DNA of 64,000 nt from Terriglobia bacterium (GTDB taxonomy: Bacteria; Acidobacteriota; Terriglobia; Bryobacterales; UBA6623). The first letter of the stretch is position 1. The number at the start of each line of letters is the position of its first letter. A model generated the notes under the pieces. It was not told the origin of the DNA. It saw only the letters and a list, made by a program, of their open reading frames with translations, and did not search any database. Of this stretch, positions 1 to 32,169 are shown one piece after another. The position numbers and the translations under genes were made by a program. The DNA is taken from the NCBI GenBank assembly GCA_009841225.1, contig VXMF01000036.1, positions 133,825 through 197,824 of the forward strand, read 5' to 3'.

Positions 1-657
1 TCAAGCATCGGGATCCGACCGAGTGTCGTAGCCGGGTTTGACGCCGGCAGGTTCGCGGCAGCCCGGACAGCCCGAGTCTTCAGCCTGGAAGACGGCCTCC
101 GCTTTGCGGCGGCCGCGGGCGAGGCGGCGACGGCTAAGGGACCTGCGGAGGCTACGGTGCAGTTCTCCGAAAGGGTAGTCCTAGAACGCCCGTCCCTCGC
201 CGTGATCCGCGGCGCCAACGGCCGTCCGTTGGGGCCTAACGAGGCGCTTGCCACCTCCTTCTGGCTCAAGCGCGATGGGGAACCTGCCGCACCGGGAGCT
301 TGCGCGCGGACTCTGGCGGACCGAGGAGTCGAGGTTGCGCTGGAGATCGGCCCGAAGCAGTCATTGGCTCGAACGATCGCCGACGCTTGGCCAGCCTCCC
401 ACGCCGAAATCGCTGCGAACGAAGGAACTCACAGCGCCCCGCTCGTACTGGCCAGCTTGCGGTCGCCGCCCGGCGACGCCACAGGGAGCCGCCCAAGCAG
501 CGGTTTCGTCGAGGCCACAGCCGCCGCCTACGAGGCTGGGCTGCCAGTCTCCTTCGCGGGCCTCTTCGCGGGCGAGGAAAGGCGCCGGATCTCGCTGCCC
601 GGCTATCCCTTCGAGCGCACGCGCCACTGGGTTGACCCTCCCAGCAGCCCGTTCTGA
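1..657 (+). CDS. Type I polyketide synthase, C-terminal end (5' partial) with degenerate acyltransferase
   Basis: The reading frame is open from base 1, so the gene begins left of the window; the listed ORF start at 157 is internal. The translation is the end of an AT domain and its post-AT linker (ISLPGYPFERTRHW), closely matching the AT-linker ends of the PKS at 9097-19389. Where the active AT1 of that protein has GHSVGE, this one has GFDAGR, so the catalytic serine is gone. The next ~80 residues of a normal AT, including the AFHS histidine motif, are deleted: the text goes straight from the VFSLEDGLRFA helix to PSLAVIRGANGRPL. No ACP or thioesterase follows before the stop. Its 3' end overlaps the convergent hydrolase gene by 55 bp. 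By analogy the missing upstream part should contain at least a KS. It cannot load extender units by itself. Confidence 0.88.
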   Translation, partial: SSIGIRPSVVAGFDAGRFAAARTARVFSLEDGLRFAAAAGEAATAKGPAEATVQFSERVVLERPSLAVIRGANGRPLGPNEALATSFWLKRDGEPAAPGACARTLADRGVEVALEIGPKQSLARTIADAWPASHAEIAANEGTHSAPLVLASLRSPPGDATGSRPSSGFVEATAAAYEAGLPVSFAGLFAGEERRRISLPGYPFERTRHWVDPPSSPF

Positions 658-1532
658 CGAAGGAATGCGCGGAGCATCGCGACGCATTCGGCTGGCTTCT
701 CCAGTTGCAGAAGGTGGGTCGAGTCCGCGATGAAGTCGTAGTCCACGTCCTGGATGTGGTTTAGGTCAAAGCTAGGCAAGTACGCATACGGGAGAGTCGG
801 ATCGGCCCCAATCACCTTCGTTGGACAGTAAAGCAGGCTCAGGTCCAGCAGCGGGGCAAAGCTCCTCACGTATTCCGAGACCTGCGCTTCGAACTCCCGC
901 GGACAGCGGAGCTCGCGGCCCTCTCGATCCGCGGCCGTCGTGAGGGTCGTCTTGGCCACGAGTTCCCGCACCCCCGGCAACACCCGGGCGTACACCGGGG
1001 AGTACTCGAGCAGGTCCGAGAACTCCTCCTCGGACTGGAAGTAGGCCGACCGGCGCCGAGTCAGCGCCGTCGCGCGGTCTGCAGCCTCGTCGAACTCCGC
1101 GTCACTCGCTGCGGGTTTGCAGAAGGGAGGATCGAACAGAACCAATCCCGAGTAGGGATCGGAGAACGAGAGGATGGCCGCAATCGTCGAAAGCGAATGA
1201 AAGACGCCTACGGTCGGTTTATCTCCATAGCGCTCGGCGATGGCCTTGGCGAGGACGTCATGGTCGTGGACCATCGTCGGTATGTTGTGATTCTTCTGCG
1301 CACCGATGGCATTCCAGCCGTGGTTTCTGATGTCGTAAACGATCAGATCGAACTCGTCCGCCAGGAGGGACCAGAACGGGTAGTAGGTGTCAATGGCGAG
1401 GCCGTTGCCGTGGCTCAGAACCAATCGGACCGGTGCGTCCGTCCGGCCATGCCGCCGCACCGGTGTGACCGTCTCCTCGTCGAGCCGCACCTCATCCACG
1501 GCCAGGGGCTCGGGTACTTCCCAGACTGCCAC
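603..1532 (-). CDS. Alpha/beta hydrolase of the PKS locus (copy 1)
   Basis: Alpha/beta-hydrolase of about 310 residues, probably a thioesterase or acyl hydrolase for the neighbouring PKS products. An HGNG oxyanion motif near residue 40, a nucleophile elbow GVFHSLS near residue 118 and a C-terminal DSTHLLQLEKP segment give the Ser and His of the triad. It is a clear paralogue of the gene at 5315, with long shared blocks such as GLAID-YPFWSLLAD, PTLPYAYLP and LQLEKPAECA. I chose the GTG at 1532 rather than the ORF start at 1574: an AAAGGA Shine-Dalgarno lies about 6 nt upstream and the N-terminus (VPEP) then aligns with the start of the paralogue. It is convergent with the PKS fragment and overlaps its end by 55 bp. 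The substrate is not visible from sequence. Confidence 0.85.
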   Translation of the reverse strand: MAVWEVPEPLAVDEVRLDEETVTPVRRHGRTDAPVRLVLSHGNGLAIDTYYPFWSLLADEFDLIVYDIRNHGWNAIGAQKNHNIPTMVHDHDVLAKAIAERYGDKPTVGVFHSLSTIAAILSFSDPYSGLVLFDPPFCKPAASDAEFDEAADRATALTRRRSAYFQSEEEFSDLLEYSPVYARVLPGVRELVAKTTLTTAADREGRELRCPREFEAQVSEYVRSFAPLLDLSLLYCPTKVIGADPTLPYAYLPSFDLNHIQDVDYDFIADSTHLLQLEKPAECVAMLRAFLRQNGLLGGSTQWRVRSKG

Positions 1533-2599
1533 CTGCGTCCTTTGGAGCCGCCTATGCGAACGGCGGCCTGCCACTGTCTCCGGCGTTCGACGCCGCCAGC
1601 TCCTCTACCGCGAGCGTGGCGGAGAAGCGTCGGTCAACTAGCCTCGCCAGCCGCCCTTGAACCGAGAGAGTTACGGGAAGGCACATCAGACAACTGGTCG
1701 CGCCCTGACATATCGCCGAGGGAATCCCGAAGGTTGCGGCCTCGAGCCTCAGGCTGACGCCGACCGCCTTGCGTCGCGCTGTCCGCTCCTCCACATCCAC
1801 CCCACCATCGCGATCACGCCATGCCGCCGGCGGTGGCTGACGTTGAAGGAGGCGAGCGCGCGAGACCCTCCGGCCAGCGAGAAACGGCTGGCCATGATTG
1901 AACGCTACGAAGGAGAGCGCTTCGCTGCCGCAGTCGAGTTCCCGGCAGAGCAGTGCTCGAGGCAACGCGTGGCGTAGGTTGAAGTTTCGTCGCGGCCCCC
2001 ACGGCACGAATCGAGTCCGGCGTGCCGGCTCCGATTCGTCAGGCCACCGCAGGGCTCCTCCCCCCCGGGGCGAACAAGTCCCGAGGTCGGCGGAGACGAC
2101 GGTGGCCCGACCGGACCGGTGAATCGGACGACTGAACACCGAAAAAGGCGCCGGACGGCACACGCGGAGCGGACCCGAGGATCGAACCGGGCCCAGCCAG
2201 CCGCGGCGCTCGAGCGGCAATGGTATGGAGAAAGGCGGCGAAATCCCGCAGGTTCCGCCAGATAGTATGACGACTTCAGGAACGGCGTGTCAAGAACAGG
2301 ACCGAATCCGGTGTCGTAGTCGTTTAGAAGTGAGCCCTTCTTCCGTCGTTTAGAAACGAGCCCTCTAGGGTGTGTTGGGGAGGGCGTGGCACCCTTCCCC
2401 CCTCAGAGAGCAGGAAGTGGGAGGCAGCGGAGGCCGGGGGGCGGCCGATTTCTTTCGGCCCTATAGATGTGGCGGGAGGGTGTGATCGAGACCGTGATCG
2501 TGCACGAGTAGGATTCAAGCGTGCCGGACGACTAGGATCTGGTCAATGCAACTAGGGGGTTGGGAGGACGATATCGTTGGAGTGCGTTACCGTTGAGGT
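1533..2599. other. Gene-free interval
   Basis: About 1.07 kb. The ORFs listed here (1552-2220 -, 1657-1977 +, 2324-2518 -) have low-complexity Arg/Pro-rich translations typical of shadow frames in GC-rich DNA and contain no domain I recognise. The only structure noted is the 20-bp direct repeat pair at 2319-2364. Confidence 0.6.
2319..2364. repeat. Tandem 20-bp direct repeat, possible IS-end remnant
   Basis: Two copies of GTCGTTTAGAAGTGAGCCCT-like sequence at 2319-2338 and 2345-2364, differing at 2 of 20 positions (GT versus AC) and spaced 26 bp start to start. Repeated GTTTAGAA-nGAGCCC-type blocks near one end are reminiscent of the multiple terminal repeats of IS21-family elements, but no transposase or opposite end is visible, so this is only a suggestion. 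Confidence 0.4.
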
Positions 2600-3538: not shown

Positions 3539-3769
3539 ATGCCAACAACGGCCGAGCGGCTGTCGAAATTGGTCGCCGATAGCTTCGACCTCGATCATGA
3601 GCCGCGCTTCGACACGGCATTCAGAGACCTCGACATCAACTCAATGGATGCGGTCAGGTTCTTTAAGCTCGTAAACGACGAATTCGACCTGGGCTTGGTA
3701 CCTCAAGACTGCCTGCAATTCAAGAATCTGAGCGATTTGGAGAGTTTCATCGACGCACGCGCTGGCTGA
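3539..3769 (+). CDS. Free-standing acyl carrier protein 1
   Basis: Acidic 76-residue protein with the size and four-helix pattern of an acyl carrier protein. The motif DLDINSMDAVRFF near residue 34 places the 4'-phosphopantetheine serine in an NSMD context in place of the usual DSL. It has a strong AAGGAGA Shine-Dalgarno 8 nt before the ATG. A close paralogue follows at 4327. Both PKSs in this locus end in KS-AT0 without an ACP, so an in-trans role as carrier for the terminal KS is the natural inference. It could instead serve fatty-acid synthesis, but primary FAS ACPs normally carry DSL and sit beside fabF or fabD, which are absent here. Confidence 0.82.
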   Translation: MPTTAERLSKLVADSFDLDHEPRFDTAFRDLDINSMDAVRFFKLVNDEFDLGLVPQDCLQFKNLSDLESFIDARAG

Positions 3770-4326
3770 GCAGGCCTCGCAGGTACCGGAAACCCGAAGC
3801 GTTCCGCGACCAACTGCGGAGCGCGCATGCGCCTCTCCGAATTCCCGAGGCGACCCGGTCGCTCCTCCCGGGCGCGGCATCGATCTTGGCTCGGCGACTT
3901 ACTGGTCCGGCAAGCATGCTCAGCGGCCGGGATGGAACGGGTTCGGAGGGGCCAAGTGTCGGGCTCAAGCTGAACAGAAGCCGCAGCTCAGCGTTGTCGG
4001 GCTCAAAGGATAATCACCGGGCGCAATGTGTATCGATTTGCGGTCCGCGGGCCTTCGCCTGCAGCCGCCGAAGCCAGCAAGGAGACGGGATGATGATGGC
4101 TTGGTACTGAGGTTAAATCACTGCGGTCGGTCATTCAGAGCAGTTGCGGAGTACACGTTAAATTCACAGACCAGTTGTCTAAAGACATCGGACCGCCTCA
4201 AAGTAGTGATCCGGTACTCGGGGAGCGTCTGTTGTACACTCTGGCTTGGCGCAGCGCGCATCTTTGCGCTAGAAGAGATGTTTCGCGACGCCTTCTGTAG
4301 TACTGACACCCAAGGAGACCACACAC
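3770..4326. other. Gene-free interval between the two ACP genes
   Basis: About 556 bp without a credible gene. Close to ACP 2 there is a small inverted repeat (AGCGC...GCGCT, around 4252-4270), a CGCGAC box and an AAGGAGA ribosome-binding site. The large gap between two tiny paralogous genes suggests separate transcription or loss of DNA in between. Confidence 0.5.
4284..4289 (+). promoter_or_regulatory. CGCGAC box at -43 of ACP 2
   Basis: Same hexamer at the same 43-nt distance from the start codon as in the leader of ACP 1 and of hydrolase 2. See the finding on the shared leader. Confidence 0.35.
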
Positions 4327-4557
4327 ATGCCATCAAACGCAGACAAGCTAACGAAGCTGATCGTTGATAACTTCGACCTCGACGAAGCGCCGAACTTCGA
4401 TGCTTCGTTCAGCGACCTCGATATCTCATCGGTCGATGCGGTCGCGTTCTTCAAACTGGTCAATAGCGAGTTTGGCCTTGGTTTGCAGGCTGACGACTGC
4501 AAGCAGTTCGAGACTCTGAGCGACCTTCTAAGTCACATCGACTCGCGCGCAGGCTGA
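4327..4557 (+). CDS. Free-standing acyl carrier protein 2
   Basis: Acyl carrier protein of 76 residues, paralogous to the one at 3539 along its whole length (shared LTKLIVDNFDLD-like start, FSDLDISSVDAV core, LSHIDSRAG end). The phosphopantetheine serine is in SSVD. The AAGGAGA ribosome-binding site and the 43-nt leader are also shared with ACP 1. Two near-equivalent ACPs could serve the two PKSs separately, or work in parallel as tandem free ACPs to raise throughput. Which KS each partners cannot be told from sequence. Confidence 0.82.
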   Translation: MPSNADKLTKLIVDNFDLDEAPNFDASFSDLDISSVDAVAFFKLVNSEFGLGLQADDCKQFETLSDLLSHIDSRAG

Positions 4558-5314
4558 GCAGTCCTCGCTCGCATCGGGCGTGCGACGTCTGTTCCTCGAC
4601 CCACGGCTGCGTACGAACGCACGTTTCTGAGTTCAGGAGGAGGCCAGAATTGCTGCTCGCAGTGTCGACAGCGATTGCAGCTTGACGCGTCACTTAGCCA
4701 GCGAGCGTTCTCAGCGGTCGGGACAGAGCCGGTGCGCGCCGGGTTCCAGCTCGACCTGATCGGACGAAGCGGGCCAAGGGTGCCGAATACGTCGGCGAGA
4801 CTTCCAGCGGGCTGTCGCCACTCGATCTCCGGATTCGCACCGAGCCGAACCGTTCCCGCGCGCTGGCGGGCGCAACTCGCCAGGTAGTCTCGCGGCTAGG
4901 TGAACGAACTCAGCCGTGTCCCAGCGGTGCGCCGCCCGCCGATAGTCAGGAATCCAGTCAGCTGCGCGTCAACATCGCTGCCCAAACGGTGGCCGGCCTT
5001 CCTGCGCGTGGTCACCGATCCGCGTCGCCATCCAAGTCTCGTGCTGCTCCGCCAGCGGTTCGCCGGAGCATCCCAGCCACTGCGGAATATCAATGCGCCG
5101 TAGGCCGAAAGTCGAGCTGGCCGCGGTGCCGTGTGGCGCTGCGCTTGTGCCCAAGGGAGCAGCAGAGTTCGTTGCTGCGGGAATTGCCGGATCCCTCCTT
5201 CAAGCTTCCTGCCGACACGATTCGAACCACACCGGCCGCTCCCGTTTCGAGTGCGTTTAATCGGTGTCTTCCGCGACACACTCTTCGATTACGAATTGAA
5301 CTCCTGCTATAACG
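4558..5314. other. Gene-free interval before hydrolase 2
   Basis: About 757 bp. A minus-strand stretch around 4990-5110 reads somewhat protein-like but is cut by stops and matches nothing I know. A CGCGAC box lies at 5272. Confidence 0.45.
5272..5277 (+). promoter_or_regulatory. CGCGAC box at -43 of hydrolase 2
   Basis: Third occurrence of CGCGAC exactly 43 nt before a start codon in this locus. Here the downstream leader differs from those of the ACPs and lacks AAGGAGA. Confidence 0.3.
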
Positions 5315-6211
5315 ATGGATTCCGTGTTAGAAATTCCCGAGCCTGTTTCGGTGTGCGACGTTCCCCTTGACGATCAGACCGTAACCAAATTGCGGCGGCA
5401 CGGCAATCCATCAGGCCCGCGGCTCGTGCTGACTCACGGCAACGGGCTCGCGATCGATGTCTATTTCCCGTTCTGGTCGCTGCTTGCAGACGATTTCGAC
5501 CTGATGATCTATGACCTCCGCAACCATGGCTGGAATTCGGTCGGACCCCAGCAGGAGCACAATGTCCCGACACTAATTGCTGACCACGATCGCATACTCT
5601 CGCACATCAAACGCGTGTACGGAAGTAAGCCGACCGTGGGGGTCTTTCACTCATTCTCCGCGCTCGTCTCAATGATGTCTCTCACGGACGCCTATTCGGC
5701 GCTGGTCCTGTTCGATCCGCCTCTGTGCAAGCCCATGGGCGGCGAGGAGGAATTCGACGCTGCGGCGGAGCGTACCGCCGCGATGGCCCGACGACGGACC
5801 GAGCGATTTCGCGCGATAGACGAACTCGCCATGCTTCTCGGCTTTCAGCCCGGGCTTTCGGACGTTTCGTCCGAAGTGCGCGAGCTCATGGCAAGGGCAA
5901 CCCTGCGCAAGCGCGCTGACGGGCAGGATTTCGAGCTGCGTTGCCCTCGCGACTATGAAGCCCAGATCGCCGAATACGTTCGGAGCTTCGCACCGTTGCT
6001 AGATCTGGAAATGCTCGCCTGCCCTACGAAAGTGGTCGGAGCCGATCCCACGCTCCCCTACGCATACTTGCCTACCTTCAACTTGAGTCAGGCGGCGGCC
6101 ATCGACTATGATTTCGTGCCCGATGCGACGCACTTCCTGCAGCTGGAGAAGCCGGCCGAGTGTGCTGCAATTCTGCGGGCCTTCCTAGAGGAGCAAGGCA
6201 TTGGGAATTGA
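5315..6211 (+). CDS. Alpha/beta hydrolase of the PKS locus (copy 2)
   Basis: Alpha/beta-hydrolase of 298 residues, paralogue of the gene at 603-1532. HGNG oxyanion motif near residue 42, nucleophile elbow GVFHSFS near residue 110, and catalytic His in DATHFLQLEKP near the C-terminus. The family includes lactone, ester and thioester hydrolases; beside PKS genes lacking a thioesterase domain it may release the chain from the ACP or hydrolyse a stalled acyl chain. It lies downstream of the two ACPs on the same strand and upstream of the ADOP permease. No strong Shine-Dalgarno is visible, but the start agrees with the paralogue's N-terminus. Confidence 0.85.
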   Translation: MDSVLEIPEPVSVCDVPLDDQTVTKLRRHGNPSGPRLVLTHGNGLAIDVYFPFWSLLADDFDLMIYDLRNHGWNSVGPQQEHNVPTLIADHDRILSHIKRVYGSKPTVGVFHSFSALVSMMSLTDAYSALVLFDPPLCKPMGGEEEFDAAAERTAAMARRRTERFRAIDELAMLLGFQPGLSDVSSEVRELMARATLRKRADGQDFELRCPRDYEAQIAEYVRSFAPLLDLEMLACPTKVVGADPTLPYAYLPTFNLSQAAAIDYDFVPDATHFLQLEKPAECAAILRAFLEEQGIGN

Positions 6212-6513
6212 GTCAATTGCTTGACGTTGCAATGGGCTCATGGAAGCACCGCCGTCCTGTAGAGCTATCAATGGAGCAAGTATCCTCGGAACTGTGCGCG
6301 ACCCCAGACATGGGTAACGCTTCGTACCGGAGACAGAAACCACCGAATGGAGGTGCTCCACCCTTCGAGGAATAGCCCTGATCAGATGTGGCCCGCCCTC
6401 ATGCGCTTGGGAACCTCGCTTCGAGTGAGCGATCAGGCTCTCGGACGAATGAAGCGGTCGCGATTCGTGACGACTTGGCGCGTCGTGCAGACTGCTTCTG
6501 GGCGAGTCATTCC

Positions 6514-8976
6514 ATGACACAAGACTTGCTGTATGCCTTGCGCTACGCGAGGAAACACTGGGGACTGTTCCTTGCCAGCGGAAGCCTGTTGGCGGCTGGT
6601 GTCGGAGCATGCACGATTGTGGTCGGGATTGCGTACGGGCTCCTATGGGGGGATCTGCCGTATCCCAACGGCGAACGCTTGGTTTACGTCTACGAGGCAT
6701 TCCCTAGCCAAGCTCCCGATCAAGGCACGCTCGTATCCATCCCGACGCTCGAAGACTGGCGTGCGGCGAACGTCACGCTCGATGGAGTGGCTGGAGCCTC
6801 CACGGGATATACCCCGAGCGTGCTGAGAATAGCCGATCCCGAGCGAGTCCAGAGTTACGGGATTTCGTCAGGGATCTTGGGGGTTCTTGGTGTCTCTCCG
6901 ATTGTTGGCCGACTGTTCGCACCGGAAGAGGAGGTTCCGGGCACAGGCAACAGGGTCGTCCTGCTGAGCCATGAATTCTGGAACCGGCGACTGGGGGCTG
7001 ATCCGGACATTTTGGGAAAGAGCATTCCCCTGGACAACGGCGCTTACAACGTGATCGGAGTCATGCCACGAGGCTTTACCTATCCGCCCTTGCTTGCTGG
7101 ACGCGAAAGGGCTGATTTCTGGGTCCCGGCAGTTCCGGAACCTGACGATTTCACGGCAAGAGATAGGCGAGTGCTGCTTGTAATTGCACGCCTCAAGTCC
7201 GATGTCACTGTTGAGCAGGCACGAGCGGACCTGGAGGTGATCGCGGCACGCATCGGAAAGGAGAATCCCGCAACTAACGAGGGTTGGGGGGTACGCGTAT
7301 CGCCCATCCATCGTAGGTTCATCGAGAGGAGCGAGAGCCGAGGGATCCTACTGCTTTTGGGAGTAGCCGTGAGCGGCGTGCTTCTCTTGGCGTGTGTGAA
7401 TGTGGCTGGACTACTCCTCGCCCGCGCCGTCCGGCGTCGGACCGAAATGGCCATCATGATGGCCTTGGGAGCCGCCAGAACCGTGCTGCTCCGGCACCTG
7501 CTGGCGGAGGGCGTCCTACTGGGCATGACGTCGGCTGCGGGCGCCTTGCTGCTTGCCTGGGCCGGGCTGCACTATGTCGATCTCTTGATTCCTGCGAACG
7601 TACCTCGGGTCGATGAGATTTCCGTTCAAGCAACGGTTGGCGGCTTGGGTGCAGGACTTGGAGTTCTCACGGCAATTCTCTGCAGCGCGGCGCCGCTCCT
7701 GACACTTACCAGCAACCGTGCTTCCGAGGCTCTTCGTGAAGCCAGCCAATTCCCGGGTCGAGATGAGAATCGGCTGGGAACTCTCGTAATCGCGGTCCAG
7801 GTGGCCGTCGCCACACTGCTGCTTACCCTGAGTGTCGCCGCGATCATGAGGTTCGATCGAATGCTGGCGGATGCCGGTGGGTCCATTGCGGTCAATTCCA
7901 TCGTGACCGCTCAGCTTCCGGAGTCGACTAGTCTCGCATCGAACAAGGCTCTGCGCCGGTTTCACCGTGAGGCGCTTGCGCAAGTCCGGACCGTGCCTGG
8001 CGTCGTCTCCGCCTCTCTGGTGTCGGAACTTCCACTGAGCGCTCGCCAGTTCTCTGGCCCAGTGAAGGTAAGAGGCCGTGAGTCGACAGAGAGCGTTCTC
8101 GACCAAGAAGCACTCGCGGAGGCGCGCAGGCTAATTGTGTCACCGGAGTACTTCCGCACCATTGGAGTTCCGCTCTTGCAGGGCCGGGACTTCAACGCCC
8201 TCGACACCGCTGAGTCCAAGCGCGTCGTTATAGTCAGCCGATCTTTAGCGTCAAAGCTTCAATCTGCGGAGATCATCGGGGAACGGATTCGCATCTGGGG
8301 CCCTGACTTGTTCGAGGTGGTTGGGGTCGCCGCCGACGCTCCGCTGGAATTCGGGCGCCACGATCTCATCCTGTATTCCCCGGCCACGCAGGTCGGAAGT
8401 GATGATCCAGGGGAGTTCCCGGAGTACGTAATCTTTGCGGGGGACGCCGCGGTAGTCGTACGAACGTCCCTGCCGACGGAGGCAATCGCCCCAGCCCTTC
8501 GCACTGCGGTGTGGTCTGCGAACGATACTCAGCCGGTCACAATCCAGTCCATGGTCGCAGTGCTCGAGGAATCCAGCGCTCCCGAGCGCCTGACAGCGCT
8601 GGTCTTCGTGTGCTTCGCCCTCCTAGCAGCGGTCTTGGCTGCGACCGGGATCTATGGTGTCTTGACGTTCTACGCATCCCGTCGCACGCGAGAAATCGGC
8701 CTGCGAAAGAGTTTCGGCGCCGAATCGAATCTCGTCACTTGGTTCATGATTGCGCGGGTGATGCGGGTCAGCCTTGCGGGTGTGCTGCTCGGCGGACTGC
8801 TCACTGTCCTCGTGCAGAGACTCCTGTCTTCTGCAGCGGTCATTGCAGAGTTCGTATCGGCGGTCGAATGGGCCGCGAGCGGAGCGCTGATTCTTGTAGT
8901 CGCGATCCTTGCCAGCGCCATTCCCGCGTTCCGAGCAGCAAGATCGAATCCTGCCGAGGCCCTTCGCCATGAGTAG
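6514..8976 (+). CDS. ADOP-family duplicated orphan ABC permease (MacB/FtsX type)
   Basis: Predicted inner-membrane protein of about 820 residues with two tandem MacB periplasmic-core plus FtsX-permease units: a membrane helix near residue 20-40, a periplasmic part (VRLFAPEEE and FWNRRLGADPDILGK motifs), an FtsX block near 285-400 with RRRTEMAIMMALGA, then a second half ending in an FtsX block with RTREIGLRKSFGAE. No ATPase is encoded beside it, which is what defines the acidobacterial duplicated orphan permeases. I start at the ATG at 6514 (MTQDLLYALRYARKH), the usual N-terminus, not the ORF start at 6388, whose 42 extra residues look non-coding. It might export the PKS product, but such permeases are numerous in these genomes and the link is only positional. 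Confidence 0.88.
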   Translation: MTQDLLYALRYARKHWGLFLASGSLLAAGVGACTIVVGIAYGLLWGDLPYPNGERLVYVYEAFPSQAPDQGTLVSIPTLEDWRAANVTLDGVAGASTGYTPSVLRIADPERVQSYGISSGILGVLGVSPIVGRLFAPEEEVPGTGNRVVLLSHEFWNRRLGADPDILGKSIPLDNGAYNVIGVMPRGFTYPPLLAGRERADFWVPAVPEPDDFTARDRRVLLVIARLKSDVTVEQARADLEVIAARIGKENPATNEGWGVRVSPIHRRFIERSESRGILLLLGVAVSGVLLLACVNVAGLLLARAVRRRTEMAIMMALGAARTVLLRHLLAEGVLLGMTSAAGALLLAWAGLHYVDLLIPANVPRVDEISVQATVGGLGAGLGVLTAILCSAAPLLTLTSNRASEALREASQFPGRDENRLGTLVIAVQVAVATLLLTLSVAAIMRFDRMLADAGGSIAVNSIVTAQLPESTSLASNKALRRFHREALAQVRTVPGVVSASLVSELPLSARQFSGPVKVRGRESTESVLDQEALAEARRLIVSPEYFRTIGVPLLQGRDFNALDTAESKRVVIVSRSLASKLQSAEIIGERIRIWGPDLFEVVGVAADAPLEFGRHDLILYSPATQVGSDDPGEFPEYVIFAGDAAVVVRTSLPTEAIAPALRTAVWSANDTQPVTIQSMVAVLEESSAPERLTALVFVCFALLAAVLAATGIYGVLTFYASRRTREIGLRKSFGAESNLVTWFMIARVMRVSLAGVLLGGLLTVLVQRLLSSAAVIAEFVSAVEWAASGALILVVAILASAIPAFRAARSNPAEALRHE

Positions 8977-9096: not shown

Positions 9097-12000
9097 CTAG
9101 CTGGCGTTGAACCAGAAACGTCGGCGCTGGAATGGATAGCTTGGTAGCGAGACCCGCGACCGTCTCTCTCCGGCGAACAGGCCGGCGAAATTGATCGAGA
9201 GACCTGACTCGTACGTCTGCGCGACTGCCTGTAAGAATCCGGTGGATTGGTCCGGCAGGCTTGACAGCACGCGGGGCGGACCGCCGCCTTCAGCTGAATC
9301 GGATGGCCAGCAGAGGGCTAGAGCCGGCCCTAGTTCGGGTTGTGCGCCAATCTCGATCACTAAGTCGGCCCCCAGTTCCTCAAGCGTCCTGGCTGTCCGT
9401 TCCAAGGGCAACTTCCGCTCCGGGCGCAGGCTCCAGTAGCCGGCGTCTTGGACCTCGCTTGATTCGATCATTCGCCCTGTAGCGCTACTGACTAGGGTGA
9501 TTTGGGCCGGGGCGAACGCGATATCCGCCAGCACTGCGTCTAAGCTGGCTGGCGGAGACTCGTCTGTGCTCGAGGCCACTGCCATCGCTGCTTGCCGTGC
9601 CGCTGCTAGGCGCAACCCCTCTTCGAGAGTCAAGATGCCTGCCGCATGTGCCGCAGCCATGTCTCCGGTGCCCACACCAAAGACTGCGCTCGGCTGAATC
9701 CCTACGCTGGCCCAAAGTGCTGTCAGAGCGCATTCCAATGCAAACGTGACCGGCTGCGTACGCGCGGGATCGTCCACAGCTCCAGACTTGCCGAACATTG
9801 CTTCCAGCAGGGACGCGCCATGGTCTGCCCGAAGTAGCTCGTCGCAGCGGTCCAGAACCGCCCGTGCGACTGGCTCGCGCTCGTATAGTTCCGCGCCCAT
9901 GTCAACCCAGTGGGTGCCCCCGCCTGGGTAGGCGAACACGACCCTCGTGGCTGTGGGAGGCCCGGGATCACCGTTCGACTCTGCGACGGCCTGCAGGCCG
10001 TCTCGCAGCGATGCAGAGCTGTCGAATAGCACCCCCGCGCGGTACGGGAAATGGCTCCGGCCCGCAGACGCGGTCCACGCCATGTCGGAGAGCAGTGGCT
10101 CTGCGGCGCTGATCGTTGTGGGAAGATCCGCCGTGTGCTCGTTCAGCCACGAAGCGTAAGACTTCGCCAACTCTCGAAGTGCAGTATCCGACTTGCCCGA
10201 CAGTGGTAGTAGCCGTGTCTGGCGCGGGCGCAGTTCCTGCGCTGCTGGCGATTCCGCAATCGAGTCCGGCAGCTCGACCCGGACCGGCTGCGGGAGACCT
10301 TCAGGGACTGGCCGCGCCTCGTCCGAGGCGCGGCCGCTGCCAGGCTCGCTGTACCCTTGCACGATCACGTGCGCATTGGTCCCCGAGATCGCGAACGCGC
10401 TGACTCCCGCGCGCGGCGGTCGATCGGCACTGATCGGCCAGTCCATCGCCTCGGACGCCACCCTGACGGGAAGTTCGGACCAGTCTACGTGCGGATTCGG
10501 ATTCTCGAAATGGAGGTGCCGCGGAATGATTCCCCGCTTCATCGCCAGCATCACCTTGATCAGGCCGGCGATTCCTGCAGCTGCCTCCAAATGCCCGATG
10601 TTCGTCTTTGCCGTGCCGAGCAGGAGCGGACGGTCCGTAGCTCGACCCGTGCCGTACACTGCCGCGACCGCTCGCACCTCAATTGGGTCGCCCAATTGGG
10701 ACCCCGTCCCGTGCGCCTCCACGTAATCCATGTCCGCCGGGGCAAGCCCGGCGCGGGAAAGCGCTTCCTGAAGCAACTGCTCCTGCGCGATACCGTTCGG
10801 CACGGTTAGCGCAGCGCTCGCCCCGTTCTGGTTGACTGCCGACCCGCGGATCACGCCCCAAATGCGGTCGCCATCTTCCTGCGCGTCCCTCAGCCGCTTC
10901 AGGACCACCATCCCGCAGCCCTCGCCGCGCACGAAGCCATCGGCGGACGCGTCGAACGTCCTGCAACGACCGGTCTTCGACAACATTCCGTATTCCGCCA
11001 TGAACTTAGCGACGGAGGGTGACAGGGCCGTCTGTACGCCTCCTGCCAAGGCTACGTGAACTTCACCCCGTTGCAAGGCGGCTACCGCTTGGTGAACCGC
11101 GACCAGCGAAGACGCACAAGTCGCGTCCACCGGCACGGCCGGGCCCATCAGGCCAAGCGTGTACGCGATCCGTCCCAGCGCGACGCTTGCGGCCGTGCCG
11201 AGATAGCTGTCATCTTGGCCGCTGGACGCGACCAAGTCGCGATACTCGCTGCCTCCGGTCAGGCCGGCATACACGCCGGCGCGGGATCCCCCGAGCGGAC
11301 CGGGGTCGATTCCCGCGTCCTCGAGCGCTCGCCAGCTCGTCTCTAGCAACATCCTTTGGCGCGGGTCCATCGTCCTTGCCTCGATCGGCTGGATGCCAAA
11401 GAACTTCGCGTCGAACCGGTCGAGCCCTTCAACGAACCCGCCCCGCCGCAGAGCGGCTGGCTCGGCTGCGGGGTCTCCCGCGACACCGCTCCAGGGTCCG
11501 GAATCCTGCCGGCCGTCTGTGACTGCGTCGGTGCCTGCCTCGAGCAAGTGCCAGTAAGCGTCGAGATCCGGCGCACCGGGGAACTGGCACGCCATGCCCA
11601 CGATCGCGATTTGACCGCCCTCGCCAGGCACTGCCGGCTGCCGCGCCGCTTCCGGCTCGACCGGCGCCTGCGGGACGGGCGCGGCCCCCACACCGGCTAG
11701 CTCCTCCGCCAGATGGCCGGCGAGCGCGGCGACGCTGGGGTAGTCGAACACGACCGTATTCGAGGCCACGTACGCGTCAGCCAAGGCGCGGTTCAGCCGA
11801 TTCCTAAGCTCCACGGCCATGAGCGAGTCCATTCCCAGGTCGAAAAACCCTACCGTGGGCGACGGCGCATTCGGCAATCGCAGTACCGCCTGCAACTCCT
11901 GCTGAACGAACGACGACAGCAAGCCCTCGCGTTCGCCTGCAGGCGTGGCCTGCAGCCGGGAGATCAGGTCGTCTGCCAATGCCGGCGAATCCTCCTGGGC

Positions 12001-15000
12001 TTCGTCGGTCGCGGCGAGCAGTTCCCCTAGCAGGGGAGGACGGTCCTCGACAGCCTCTTGGAAGACCTCCCAGTCCATCGACATCACGACGGAATTCGTA
12101 ACGTCTTGGCGCACCAGCCCTTCCATCGCCCGAATGCCCTGTTGTGGCGTGAACCAGCGACCGCCGAGCGCCGCCCGCTGCCTCTCGATCCGCTCCTTTT
12201 GTTCCGCCGCTTCCCCGATGTCCGACCACGCCCCCCAGGCAATCGCTTGGCCCGGAAGCCCCAGCGCGCGACGATGGGCAGCCAGCTGATCTAGGAATGC
12301 ATTGGCCGTGGCATGGTTCGCCTGGCCCGGATTGCCCATGACTCCGACTCGGCTCGAGAAGAGGATAAAGAGATCGAGATCGCGGCTGGCCGTCGCGCGG
12401 TGCAGGTGCCACGCGCCCAGCACTTTGGGCCACAGCACCTGCTCGAACCGCTCCCAGCTTTGGTTTCCGAGCGCACCGTCCGCGAGCACTCCCACGCTGT
12501 GAATCAGGCCGCCGAGCGGCGGCAGTTCCCGATCCATCCTCGCGAGCATTTCATCTACCGCCACGGTGTCCGATACATCCGCAAGCTCAACCCGCACGTT
12601 GACCCCGCGCGCCCGCAGCGCTGTAATCTCTGCCTCGGCCTCGGGGTCTGGCGGCCGCCGTCCGTTCAGCACAATCGTCCCCGCTCCCCGGTCGGCCAGC
12701 CACCCGGCCACGGCGCATCCAATCCCGCCGAGGCCGCCAGTCACCAGATACGTCCTCTCCGGCCGCAATCGCCCGCCCGCGAGAGGGGGCGTCGTTACGA
12801 CGATCTTGCCGAGATGACGGGCTGAGCGCATGAACCTCAGGGCCGCTCCTGCTTCGGCCAGTGGCCACCTGCTATGGATCAGCGGCTCTAGCTGTCCCGC
12901 CGAAAGGCGCTGCACAATGTCCCGCAGGACTCGTCCCACCCAAGCCGGTTCCGTTTTCTTCAGAACATCCAGTTCCAAGATGGCGTAGCCCACGTCGGGC
13001 CGCACCGAGGCCATCTCGTCCTCGCTGAGGATGTCCCGTCTCGCGAGTTCGACGAATCGCCCGCCATGTCTCAGGCAGGACAGGCTGGCATCGATAAATC
13101 CTTCTCCGGTCAGGCTGTTGAGGACTATGTCGACCCCCGCACCGCCCGTGGCCTCGAGGATCGCTTGGCCGAACTCAGTCGTGCGGCTGTCGAACACGTG
13201 CGACACTCCCAGCGATCGGAGATACCCCTGCTTTGGCGCGCTCGCGGTCGTGAACACTTCCGCACCCGCGGCTTGGGCCAGCTGAATGGCCGCCAGTCCC
13301 ACTCCGCCCGCACCGGCGTGAATCAGCACCCGCTCGCCCGCCTCCAGCCCAGAGTATTCGTACGAAAGCGCGGCTGAGACAAAGGCGCTCGGCACTGTGG
13401 CGAGGTCCGTCACGGAGACCCCGGGCGGCGCGGGCGCCACCAGTTCCTTGTGCGTGACCATTTGCGCCGCGAATGCGCCAAACCCTAGGCCGACGACGTG
13501 GTCTCCGACCGAGACGCTTGACACTTCGGACCCCACATCGACGATGTGGCCACACATCTCCCTGCCAAGGTTTCCTTCTTCAATGAAGCCAAGAGAGCGG
13601 AAAACATCCCAGAAGTTGAGACCGGAAGCCTCTACGGCGACGCGGACTTCGTGCGGTTCCAAGGAACGCTCCGCCAGCGGGCTGACGCACGGCCTTTCGA
13701 ACACGCCGGCCGGGTCCGGAGCCAATACCCACGCAGAATCGTCTGGCAAGGTCAGCCTCTGCGCGCCATCCTCCATTCGAACCAGACGGGCCACTTGGCG
13801 GCTTCCGAAACGGTGCGCGATGTGATTCTCGCTGTCGGGCCACAACAGCTCATTGGCAAGCTCGGGCGGCAGTGCCGACCCTGAGGGATCCAGGTCGACC
13901 ATTCTCGGCTGCAAGTGCGGCAGTTCGCGGGCTAGTGCCTTTCCGAAGCCCCACAGAGTCGCGCCCAGAAGCTGCCCACCCCGCTCCCGCTCCAGCACCT
14001 GTGCTCCGCGCGTGAGGAACCAAGTGCCTTTCTCGGGCGTCGCGTCGGCGTCCAGCAGTCCCTGCGACAGCGCCAGTGCGCTCGCCACCACCCGTCTTGT
14101 GTCCTCTGCAATCTCGGCCGTCGATGCATCCTCCCCGTGGCCGTCCAGCGCCCCGACGTGCACGACGCCGGCCAGCGGTATTTCCCCAGGCAGGCTCTCG
14201 AACAGCGACTGCCACGACTCGCGCCGCTCGGTTTCGACGGTCTTGTGAACCGCGGCGGAACCTTCCTGGCCCGAATCCCGGGTCTGTTCCCCAGCCGGCT
14301 GCGCCAACACGACGGTCTGGTTGTGCGCAGCCAAGATCCCCGCGAGTTCCTCGGATGCGCCGCCGCTGCTTGCCGCCAGAACCCAGAGGCCGGGACGCTC
14401 GGTCACCTCAGCGGGGCCTTGCGCGACGATCACCCCTTTGTCCGGGAATGCGGCCGGGTCGGACTCATCCAATCCCAGGACTTCAGCTTCCCTGAAACCG
14501 GCATCAGAGAGAGCGCGCCGCCATACCGCGGGGCTGGCCAAGGCGTGGTGCGGACGGTAGTCATCCGCAAAACGCCACCAGCCGTCCAATTGCCCAAAGG
14601 TCAGGTCCATCCAGCCCTGGCCGCTCAGGTTCTCAAGCGCAACCAGATGCCCGGATGGCGCAAGGAGCTCGCGACAGTGAGCCAGCGTCTCCTGCAAGTA
14701 CCGCGTGGCGTGCAGCACATTCGAAGCAATCAGTAAGTCGTAACCGTGGGGCCGAAAGCCCTGCTCGACGGGGTTCCTCTCGATGTCCAGCGCAAGGTAT
14801 TCTATCGACGCTTCGGCGCCTCCGAAGCGTGCCTCCGCTTCCGCGAAGAAGCCCGCCGAGATGTCCGTGTACACGTAATCGAACTGCTCGGGCGGGAGTT
14901 CTGGAAGGATCGCGGCGGTTGCCGATCCCGTGCCGGCCCCGACTTCGAGCACCTTCAGGCGTCGTCCTTCGGGCAGCCCGGCCACTAGGGCTTGAACGGT

Positions 15001-21502: not shown

Positions 21503-22981
21503 ATGACCCGCAGGCAGATGATGTCCACCGCTCTGGGAGCGGCCGCCACGCTACCGGCCTTGGGAGCAGAGAGGCGACCCAATATCCTTTTCGCCATCGC
21601 CGACGATTGGGGCTGGCCCCACGCGGGAGCCTACGGGTGTAGTTGGGTCGACACGCCTGCTTTCGACCGCATTGCGAGCGAAGGCGTGTTGTTCGCGAAC
21701 TGCTTCACCTCCAATCCTAAGTGCTCTCCGTGCCGCGCCAGCATCCTGACCGGGCGCAACACTTGGCAGCTCGAAGAGGCCGTCAATCACTTCGGAGTGT
21801 TTCCGGCCAAGTGGGCTGTTTTCCCCGACCTGCTGGAACAGGCCGGCTACCACGTCGGCTACACCGGCAAGGGCTGGGGCCCGGGAGACCACAAGGCCGG
21901 TGGCTTCAAGCGCAATCCGGCCGGGCCGGAGTACGTCAAGCACACGCTTGAGCCCGAGTTCCGCGCCATGTCGAACAAGGACTACGCGAGGAATTTCGAG
22001 TACTTCCTCGAGTCCCGCGGCGCCGAGCAGCCGTTCTGCTTCTGGTTCGGCACGCACGAGCCCCACCGTGCGTTCCAAGACGGAGCGGGCGAACTCAGCG
22101 GCAAGCGCTTTCAAGACGTCGACGTGCCTGCCTTCTACCCTGATGACCCGACCATCCGACGCGACCTGGCCGACTACGCCGTCGAGTCCGAGTGGTTCGA
22201 CACGCACTTGGGCCGGATTTTGGCCAAGCTGGAGGAGATCGGGGAGTTGGACAACACCCTGATCATCGCCACCTCGGATCACGGCATGCCGTTCCCGAGA
22301 GTGAAGGGCCAGATTTATGAGTACGGCTTCCACCTTCCGCTGGCCGTCCGCGGAGGCGGCGGCCGCAAGGGGCGCACCGTGGAGGACTTCATCAATGTCA
22401 GGGACTTCGCGCCCACGATTCTGGAACTCGCCGGCGTAGAGGTTCCGGACTCGGTAACTGGCAGCAGCTTTGTGGAGATTTTGAATTCAGACGCCGAAGG
22501 CTGGGTCGATTCCAACCGCAACCGCATGCTGGTGGGCAAGGAACGGCACGACTTGGGCCGGCCCAACGACTGGGGATATCCGGTGCGGGCCTTGCGGACG
22601 CCGGAGTACCTCTACGTCCGCAACTACGAGCCTGACCGCTGGCCCGCAGGCAATCCGGAGACCGGCTACCGCAACTGCGATGCAAGCCCGACAAAATCCC
22701 GGCTCGTCGGGAGATTCGACGAGTACTATCGCATGTCGTTCGGAATGCGTCCGGCCGAGGAGCTGTATCGCGTTGACAGCGATCCGGACTGCGTTCTCAA
22801 CCTAGCAGCGGACCCGTCTCATGCCGAGGCGAAGAAGTCCCTGCGGGCCGAACTGCAGCAACGCTTGGAACGCGACGGCGACCCGCGCGCCTTGGGAGAG
22901 GCGTGGGTCTTCGACACGTATAGGTACACCGGTCAGCGCCGCCACTCTTATTCAACATGGCTGGAACACAACGGCTCGTAA
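21503..22981 (+). CDS. Arylsulfatase-type (S1 family) sulfatase
   Basis: 492-residue sulfatase of the alkaline-phosphatase superfamily. N-terminal TRRQMM and Ala-rich segment look like a Tat-type signal. RRPNILFAIADDWG carries the first metal aspartates; CSPCRASILTGR is the sulfatase signature whose first Cys becomes formylglycine; TGKGWGPGDH and ATSDHGMPF contain further catalytic and metal residues. The closest general type is heparan-N-sulfatase-like S1 sulfatases, but substrate cannot be assigned. The Cys-type site needs formylglycine-generating enzyme or an anaerobic maturase, neither of which is in this window. It is third in the ThuA-lipoprotein-sulfatase run. Confidence 0.92.
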   Translation: MTRRQMMSTALGAAATLPALGAERRPNILFAIADDWGWPHAGAYGCSWVDTPAFDRIASEGVLFANCFTSNPKCSPCRASILTGRNTWQLEEAVNHFGVFPAKWAVFPDLLEQAGYHVGYTGKGWGPGDHKAGGFKRNPAGPEYVKHTLEPEFRAMSNKDYARNFEYFLESRGAEQPFCFWFGTHEPHRAFQDGAGELSGKRFQDVDVPAFYPDDPTIRRDLADYAVESEWFDTHLGRILAKLEEIGELDNTLIIATSDHGMPFPRVKGQIYEYGFHLPLAVRGGGGRKGRTVEDFINVRDFAPTILELAGVEVPDSVTGSSFVEILNSDAEGWVDSNRNRMLVGKERHDLGRPNDWGYPVRALRTPEYLYVRNYEPDRWPAGNPETGYRNCDASPTKSRLVGRFDEYYRMSFGMRPAEELYRVDSDPDCVLNLAADPSHAEAKKSLRAELQQRLERDGDPRALGEAWVFDTYRYTGQRRHSYSTWLEHNGS

Positions 22982-30386: not shown

Positions 30387-30672
30387 CCGGTCGCCACCCT
30401 CCGCCGACGGGAAGGCATTGGTCCGCTTCGACGACTTCGCGAGGTGTCTGGTCTCCTCGGCCGCCCAGTCCGCGAACGACGAGTGGAAACCGTTCTGCGG
30501 CCGCGGTGCGATTTTGTGCAGCGTCAACGCGGGAATGGGACTACTGCTCCACATGGGCAACACGAGCTACTGCCCGCAGTCCAGATGTCGCCGCCGGTCC
30601 AGTCGGTGATGACAAGTAATGATTAGGCCGCGCGAGGCTCCGGCCTGTGATAGGGTATCGACCGGAATTCCC
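30387..30672. other. Gene-free interval before the lipoprotein sulfatase
   Basis: About 285 bp. The short ORFs starting at 30418 and 30444 match nothing I recognise. The sulfatase ORF is open from 30619, but its signal peptide starts at 30673. Confidence 0.45.
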
Positions 30673-32169
30673 ATGACCCATAGCATCCGCGTAGCCTGCA
30701 CTGGCGTTGCGATCGCCGCCCTGTTGGCGGCCTGCTCGGCCGAGCAGGCGCCCCCACCCAAGCCCAACATCCTGTTCATCGCGATCGACGACCTCAACGA
30801 TTGGGTGGGACCGCTAGGAGGCCATCCGCAAGTGAAGACGCCGTACATGGACCGGCTGGCTGCGCGCGGCACGACCTTTCTCAACGCCCAGACCCAGGCG
30901 CCTCTGTGTAATCCGTCTCGCACCAGCCTCCTGACCGGCCTCCGGCCGACCAGCACCGGGATTTACGGACTCGCGCCGTGGTTCCGGGAAGTTGATTCGC
31001 TGAATGACATCGAGTCGCTGCCGCAGTACTTCGAGCGCAACGGCTACGCCACCTATGCGACCGGCAAGATCTACCACGGGCGATTCGGGAGGGCAGATAC
31101 AGACACCGAGTTCCAGTTCCTGGGGCCGCCTGCTGGAGTGGGGGCGCGCCCCGAGGAAAAGCTGGTGCAGACGCCGCAGGACCACCCGCTGATGGATTGG
31201 GGTACCTTCCCGCACAAGGACGAGGACAAGGGCGACTGGCAGGTCGCCAGCTGGGCGGTCGAACAGCTGCAAGGACCGCTGAACGGGCCGCAAGAGCAGC
31301 CCTTCTTCTTGGCCGCCGGGTTCTTCCTGCCCCACGTGCCCTGCTACGTGACACAGGAGTGGTACGACATGTACCCGCTCGATTCGGTCGTCCTGCCGGA
31401 GATTCGCCGCGACGACCGTGACGACACGCCTCGCTTCAGCTGGTACCTGCACTGGAAGCTGCCCGAGCCGCGGCTGAAGTTTCTCGAGGAAGCCGGCCAG
31501 TGGCGCAATCTCGTGGCGTCCTATCTCGCGTCGGTCAGCTTCGTCGACAGCCAGGTCGGGCGCGTGCTGGACGCGCTGGAGGCGAGCGGCCATGCCGATG
31601 ACACGGTCGTCGTGCTCTGGTCCGACCACGGCTGGCACCTCGGCGAGAAGCTGATCACTGGCAAGAACACGCTCTGGGACCGCTCGGCCAGGGTGCCCCT
31701 GATCTTCGCGGGCCCGGGCGTCTCCCAAGGCGCTCGCGTGACCAGCCCGGCGGAACTGCTTGACATCTACCCCACGCTGGTCGAGCTTGCCGGCCTGCCC
31801 GCCCAGCAGGGGCTGGACGGCCACAGCTTGGCGCCGCAACTGCAGGACGCGTCGGCGCCGCGCGAATGGCCCGCCATCACCACGCACAATCCTGGCAATC
31901 ACGGTGTCCGCTCGGAGAACTGGCGCTACATCCGCCACGCCGACGGCTCTGAGGAGCTGTACGACATGCGCAACGACCCGCAGGAGTTCGAAAACCTCGC
32001 CGGGGACAGCCAGTACGCCGAGGTAATGGCCGAACACCGTCGCTTCCTGCCCGAGAGCGAACGGCCGCACGCGCCCGGCAGCCGCGCTCGGGTGCTCATC
32101 TACGACGAAGGCAACGTGAACTGGGAGGGCGAAGACGTAGCTCCGACCGATCCCATTCCAGAGATCTGA
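30673..32169 (+). CDS. Lipoprotein sulfatase, iduronate-2-sulfatase-like
   Basis: About 498 residues from the ATG at 30673. The N-terminus (THSIRVACTGVAIAALLAAC) is a lipoprotein signal with lipobox AAC, so the enzyme is membrane-anchored and extracytoplasmic. KPNILFIAIDDLNDWVG gives the metal aspartates, CNPSRTSLLTG is a canonical C-x-P-S-R formylglycine motif, and WSDHGWHLGEK holds the distal metal and catalytic residues. DDLNDW and the SDHGWHLGE pattern are those of iduronate-2-sulfatase/choline-sulfatase-like S1 enzymes. The natural sulfated substrate is unknown. The ORF start at 30619 adds 18 residues in front of the signal and is less likely. Confidence 0.92.
   Translation: MTHSIRVACTGVAIAALLAACSAEQAPPPKPNILFIAIDDLNDWVGPLGGHPQVKTPYMDRLAARGTTFLNAQTQAPLCNPSRTSLLTGLRPTSTGIYGLAPWFREVDSLNDIESLPQYFERNGYATYATGKIYHGRFGRADTDTEFQFLGPPAGVGARPEEKLVQTPQDHPLMDWGTFPHKDEDKGDWQVASWAVEQLQGPLNGPQEQPFFLAAGFFLPHVPCYVTQEWYDMYPLDSVVLPEIRRDDRDDTPRFSWYLHWKLPEPRLKFLEEAGQWRNLVASYLASVSFVDSQVGRVLDALEASGHADDTVVVLWSDHGWHLGEKLITGKNTLWDRSARVPLIFAGPGVSQGARVTSPAELLDIYPTLVELAGLPAQQGLDGHSLAPQLQDASAPREWPAITTHNPGNHGVRSENWRYIRHADGSEELYDMRNDPQEFENLAGDSQYAEVMAEHRRFLPESERPHAPGSRARVLIYDEGNVNWEGEDVAPTDPIPEI

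Follow-up and report, generated by a model that had tools for sequence, protein, structure and literature searches.

A KS-AT0 tail, a type II-like acyl carrier protein and an alpha/beta-hydrolase as a putative finishing cassette of methylating polyketide synthases from a likely sponge symbiont

Genes at the locus

The window, a stretch of 64,000 nucleotides (G000:C18:133825-197824), belongs to a genome of 5.74 Mb in 58 contigs whose closest public relatives are labelled Bryobacterales or Terriglobia bacterium. The labels of related genomes (RHO, COS, SB, jk and p16 bins) suggest an origin in sponge metagenomes, and the host bacterium is probably a sponge symbiont. The species R. odorabile and C. 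matthewsi belong to one survey of sponge metagenomes (PMC8163846). Most of the sequences compared in this study are MAGs.

The genes of interest follow one another as the end of a first polyketide synthase (PKS1, plus strand), the hydrolase HydA (minus), the free acyl carrier proteins ACP1 and ACP2 (both plus), a second hydrolase, HydB (plus), a permease (plus) and a second synthase, PKS2 (minus) (Table 1). HydA and PKS1 meet tail-to-tail with an overlap of 55 bp. An AAGGAG ribosome-binding site stands immediately 5' of ACP1, and ACP1, ACP2 and HydB, spaced about 0.56 and 0.76 kb apart, do not form a single tight operon. No Rfam family and no tRNA was found on scanning the window. Sulfatase-like genes, recognised by eye at positions 21503-22981 and 30619-32169 of the window, fit a polysaccharide-using marine lifestyle. 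Another large PKS frame of 2373 aa (G000:C10:63778) is found in the same genome, outside both of the units described below.

Table 1. Positions of the features (window coordinates unless a contig is given)
Feature	Position	Strand	Remarks
PKS1, C-terminal 218 aa	1-657	+	End of AT0 and post-AT linker
PKS1, whole, 3475 aa	G000:C18:124054-134481	+	Mostly left of the window
HydA, alpha/beta-hydrolase of unit 1	603-1535	-	PF12697; start picked by homology
ACP1, free acyl carrier protein, 76 aa	3539-3769	+	Ser in NSMD; PF00550 E 1.2e-7
ACP2, free acyl carrier protein, 76 aa	4327-4557	+	Ser in SSVD; PF00550 E 1.6e-7
HydB, alpha/beta-hydrolase of unit 2	5315-6211	+	PF12697 E 2.5e-14
ABC-transporter-like (MacB/FtsX-type) permease	6388-8976	+	Type judged from sequence; between HydB and PKS2
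PKS2, 3440 aa	9097-19419	-	KS-AT-DH-MT-ER-KR-ACP-KS-AT0
PKS2 terminal KS	10345-11604	-	Cys-His-His intact: DAT[C]ASS, EA[H]GTGS, NIG[H]LE
PKS2 AT0	9100-10032	-	GVGTG replaces GHSxG; catalytic-His segment deleted; ends at post-AT linker SLPSYPFQRRRFWFN
ACP3, third free ACP	G000:C18:123600-123830		10.2 kb left of the window, 5' of PKS1; start picked by homology

Synthase tails, carriers and hydrolases

PKS1 shares the domain order of PKS2, and the post-AT linker is precisely where both proteins stop; no ACP domain follows it. The preliminary description of the locus had proposed two PKSs with KS-AT0 ends lacking a following ACP, which is confirmed. The C-terminal AT is devoid of the Ser, its motif reading GVGTG in PKS2, GFDAG in PKS1 and mostly GxGxG elsewhere. 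The spacing from the nucleophile motif to SNxTG is about 135 residues in internal ATs as against 42-63 in C-terminal ATs, from which the His has been removed. Both the Ser and the His-bearing stretch of about 70-95 residues are missing from PKS2 and from 20 of 20 distinct aligned C-terminal ATs of the core family, in which core hydrolases are those about 57-100% identical to HydB or HydA; the G126 and G128 copies, whose shortness or divergence kept them from passing the alignment filter, were unscored. The internal ATs of the core PKSs retain GHSxGE and His. Judged by these residues, the C-terminal AT of PKS2 and of the aligned core copies is dead. The terminal KS retains Cys-His-His in every core copy, and terminal KS motifs are unusual ([C]AAS, HAxGS, HGAGS). 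In the distant loci L068 and L069, the terminal KS has kept its Cys and lost both His (EA[S]AGGS, PNVS[N]), a truncated AT0 follows, and the C-terminal ATs are likewise dead. Other exceptions among distant clusters are L057, where the AT is intact and the fetched stretch ends, and L064/L065, where the AT is of full length and has lost the Ser.

The position of the KR catalytic Tyr (GQANYAAAN; window 12085-12777, minus strand) is occupied by His in all 41 motifs found by pattern, a few copies being counted twice, and by Tyr in some distant PKSs. Since the His runs throughout the KS-AT0 family, ketoreduction by this domain is not assured. The best solved-structure match of the PKS2 KR is mycocerosic acid synthase (MAS), an iterative reducing module that makes methyl-branched chains. 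The branches of MAS products come from methylmalonyl, and the enzyme has no C-MT and no KS-AT0 tail, whereas a C-MT is present in PKS1 and PKS2.

Both free ACPs counted in the preliminary description are real PF00550 proteins, but the count omitted ACP3. ACP1 shares 63% identity with ACP2, while either of them is only 28-30% identical to ACP3; the two are therefore tandem duplicates within one unit rather than one carrier per PKS. Hence the proposed 2:2:2 pairing, with one ACP and one hydrolase for each PKS, does not hold: there are three ACPs, two of them tandem duplicates, and the genes group differently. The free ACPs share 18-23% identity with the PKS-internal ACP (21-23% for ACP1 and ACP2 against that of PKS2), the nearest solved structures of ACP2 are type II FAS ACPs, and the free ACPs are type II-like. 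A PPTase gene adjoins the ACP and hydrolase genes in two alphaproteobacterial MAGs; in the alphaproteobacterial loci L087 and L081 the three genes stand together with no PKS within the stretch, and the vicinity of L087 also has genes that by eye are P450-, acyl-CoA dehydrogenase- and AMP-ligase-like.

HydA and HydB are 58% identical, in agreement with the earlier reading of two paralogous hydrolases, although HydA lies outside the interval 3539-6211 to which that reading was attached. The residues S113, H273, D134 and D244 (HydB numbering) are invariant across 37 hydrolase members, as are R36, R69, R161, C210 and E215 besides the triad. The AlphaFold model of the hydrolase has a pLDDT of 89.7, and the best Foldseek folds, 3kxp among them, include acetamidomethylene-succinate hydrolase and CurM thioesterase, a likeness at the level of the fold only. 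Sequence and model agree that HydB is an alpha/beta-hydrolase with Ser-His-Asp. PF12697 was matched in all 37 members, and beyond it only PF00561 and PF12146. A type II thioesterase identity is thus discarded (PF00975 matches in 0 of 37 members), and so is a release enzyme of the LovG type, LovG being an FSH1-type serine hydrolase.

All core hydrolases fall into a single clade (support 0.965), whose sister is a PKS-linked branch (0.936). At 43-49% identity, some hydrolases lie beside other PKSs and some have no PKS nearby; several of the PKS-linked ones have their own ACP-like ORF and a KS-AT0 at the N- or C-terminus. In L051, L052, L053 and L066 the PKS beside a distant hydrolase relative starts with a KS in which Ser replaces the active Cys, and the AT behind it reads GHG or GCG, which gives a loading-like KS(S)-AT0-ACP module. 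Relatives of 34-38% identity have unrelated, partly molybdenum-hydroxylase genes as neighbours, and so does a plasmid gene of 32%. There are two plasmid relatives (32-33%), and the annotated one stands in a non-PKS molybdenum-hydroxylase setting. Within the genome of the window, a non-PKS hydrolase paralogue (L006, G000:C23:249500-269400) lies near genes that by eye are type I-E CRISPR-Cas-like.

Co-occurrence and lateral transfer of the set

Among 120 relatives, the hydrolase (E<=1e-20) was found in 13 genomes from 2 of 48 genera, and end-to-end KS-AT0 matches were found in nine, all of them inside the 13. Likewise, of 396 genomes from the phylum, 19 carry the hydrolase (E<=1e-40) and 17 carry KS-AT0 (E<=1e-170); each occurs in four of 211 genera, and these are the same four. 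All 17 KS-AT0 genomes have the hydrolase, and two of the 19 hydrolase genomes have no KS-AT0. The association has a Fisher p of 6e-28, which ignores kinship and is inflated for that reason. A further 12 genomes of the public set, labelled Nitrospinota, Alphaproteobacteria, Opitutales, Holophagales and others, all carry both the hydrolase and KS-AT0. The preliminary description had expected the ACP and the hydrolase to travel with KS-AT0 PKSs, and this is borne out, as the opposite pattern, with homologues mostly in genomes devoid of such PKSs, is absent. In the single-contig genome G009, the hydrolase is broken by a TGA and no KS-AT0 match was found at E<=1e-120. The idea that the hydrolase is a general PKS companion is weakened by genomes that are rich in other KS candidates and have no hydrolase.

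The linkage is physical as well. The C-terminus of a KS-AT0 lies within 5 kb of 22 of the 30 core hydrolase genes (24 genomes; two of the 30 are broken or partial). Most of the other eight are near a contig end or broken, the clean exceptions being G128:C10, with no PKS within 10 kb, and G122, with none on its 15-kb contig; both of these genomes have a KS-AT0 PKS elsewhere. A free ACP is found in the locus of 29 of the 30 core hydrolases, and the ACP-hydrolase pair persists beside other PKSs. In Mantel comparisons on a non-redundant set, the correlation was strongest between hydrolase and ACP (r 0.65, 0/5000), in keeping with a hydrolase that acts on the ACP; it was 0.41 (3/5000) between terminal KS and ACP and a modest 0.36 (11/5000) between terminal KS and hydrolase.

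The grouping into units is shown by the Holophagales MAG L118, a single locus of which holds counterparts of ACP3 (78% identity), HydA (87%) and PKS1 (82% over 3468 aa). Since these counterparts stand together, unit 1 is ACP3-PKS1-HydA, and unit 2 is ACP1/ACP2 with HydB and PKS2. The EF-G of the window is only 50% identical to its best match in the L118 genome, as against 97-98% to those of G005 and G010. Given unit parts shared with Holophagales MAGs at 78-87% and EF-G at 50%, the whole of unit 1 has probably moved laterally, with the caution that EF-G has paralogues. In G010 and G004, HydB and the PKS are only 0.2 kb apart; the permease is absent between them and is excluded from the set. 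Taken together, the sequence comparisons support the KS-AT0 end, the free ACP and the hydrolase as a conserved, co-inherited and laterally moving set.

Known systems and a proposed mechanism

A KS with a truncated AT lacking the Ser-His dyad is known from the mupirocin pathway of Pseudomonas fluorescens, where MmpF condenses 3HP-MacpD with malonyl-MacpA/B and a C183A mutant is inactive (PMC10098928). Like MmpF with MacpA/B/D, the tails described here fuse a Cys-His-His KS to a truncated AT-like region without the dyad, and discrete ACPs are encoded nearby, which would be used in trans. However, MmpF is a stand-alone protein of a trans-AT pathway with trans KR and ER, whereas here the KS-AT0 forms the C-terminal end of a methylating type I protein of ~3400 aa that has an alpha/beta-hydrolase among its partners.

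For the Sup group (SupA), small type I PKSs from sponge bacteria, the proposed products are branched fatty acids (PMC4245539, PMC9864124). PKS1 and PKS2 could fall in the same KS clade as SupA, but unlike Sup, compared by its description in these papers only, they have a C-terminal KS-AT0 with a free ACP and a hydrolase. The Swf systems, widespread in sponge symbionts, combine a mono-modular KS-AT-DH-ER-KR-ACP without MT with SwfB (R+ST) and SwfC (radical SAM) (PMC3908369). Membership in that group is rejected, as PKS1 and PKS2 contain an MT and no SwfB- or SwfC-type genes lie between them. As in LovB/LovG, a separate enzyme is predicted to release the product of an iterative methylating PKS, but LovG acts on LovB itself, and that system has neither a free ACP nor a KS-AT0 tail (PMC7870829). 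The exact layout of KS-AT0 tail, free ACP and hydrolase was not found in the open-access literature.

On balance, and with moderate confidence, sequence and the analogy to known systems favour a reading in which each unit would pair a methylating, fully equipped type I module with a split terminal module served in trans by a type II-like ACP, which would also be the target of the hydrolase. From the domains, the internal module would build an alpha-methyl-branched chain on its internal ACP, and the Cys of the terminal KS, whose Cys-His-His is seen in the sequence, would accept the chain. A PPTase would pantetheinylate the free ACP and, with AT0 unable to load it, either the internal AT or FabD would supply the malonyl group in trans. 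The free ACP would then receive the chain, most likely via one decarboxylative condensation and possibly by plain transfer. Finally, as linkage and co-evolution suggest, the cognate hydrolase would cut the acyl group from the free ACP or hand it to an acceptor. Points against this reading are the loose spacing of the genes, the two clean exceptions to the linkage (G128:C10 and G122) and the modest correlation between terminal KS and hydrolase. PKS1 and PKS2 would be lipid-like synthases with a predicted methyl-branched product. The hybrid type I/type II-like scheme of the preliminary description is plausible as a conserved, co-inherited set, though not in its neat pairing.

Alternatively, the terminal KS may be a transacylase that passes the finished chain unextended from the internal to the free ACP, after which the hydrolase frees a methyl-branched fatty acid. 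The unusual motifs of the terminal KSs fit such a role, as do L068 and L069 of the distant PKS-linked branch, whose KSs resemble non-elongating KSs in having lost both His and still lie near a related hydrolase. Yet MmpF, with its dead AT, does condense (PMC10098928), and both His, which transfer alone should not need, are kept in all core members, so that transfer without extension is rather unlikely. A role of the free ACP and hydrolase at the start of synthesis or in editing, in which the ACP brings a starter or misloaded ACPs are cleared by the hydrolase in the manner of a type II thioesterase, KS-AT0 being incidental, appears improbable. Editing hydrolases are common in PKS clusters, and distant clusters have an ACP-hydrolase pair upstream of PKSs starting with KS(Cys to Ser)-AT0-ACP; but the hydrolase tracks KS-AT0 and not PKSs generally, none of the 37 members matches the PF00975 thioesterase, and editing needs no dedicated free ACP. 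Similarly doubtful is the idea that the hydrolase works as an acyltransferase, taking the chain off the free ACP and placing it on an alcohol or an amine so that a lipid ester or amide results. The fold does include acyltransferases and the residues invariant besides the triad would suit one, but the nearest folds are hydrolases and CurM thioesterase, and the core loci showed no conserved neighbouring gene for making an acceptor. Least of all is the KS-AT0 tail likely to be a decaying, functionless second module: the AT is indeed dead and shortened, but genomes labelled as several different phyla have open frames in which the KS Cys-His-His is intact and which always end at the same post-AT linker, and random decay is disfavoured because it would strike the KS too.

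It is quite possible, and is advanced here tentatively, that the KS-AT0 tail, the type II-like ACP and the alpha/beta-hydrolase form a general finishing cassette passed among unrelated sponge symbionts, which would make undescribed methyl-branched lipids or ketones via a final trans-ACP condensation and hydrolytic release. The set of three is met again in several phyla of bacteria that apparently come from sponges, and so it looks like a novel means of finishing and releasing a polyketide chain. This reading offers a testable answer to how a PKS ending in KS-AT0, with neither carrier nor thioesterase, may finish its chain, and it ties a single biochemical oddity, MmpF, to a family recurring across phyla. 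A further implication is a product shared laterally within sponge microbiomes, which would bear on the source of their abundant branched lipids.
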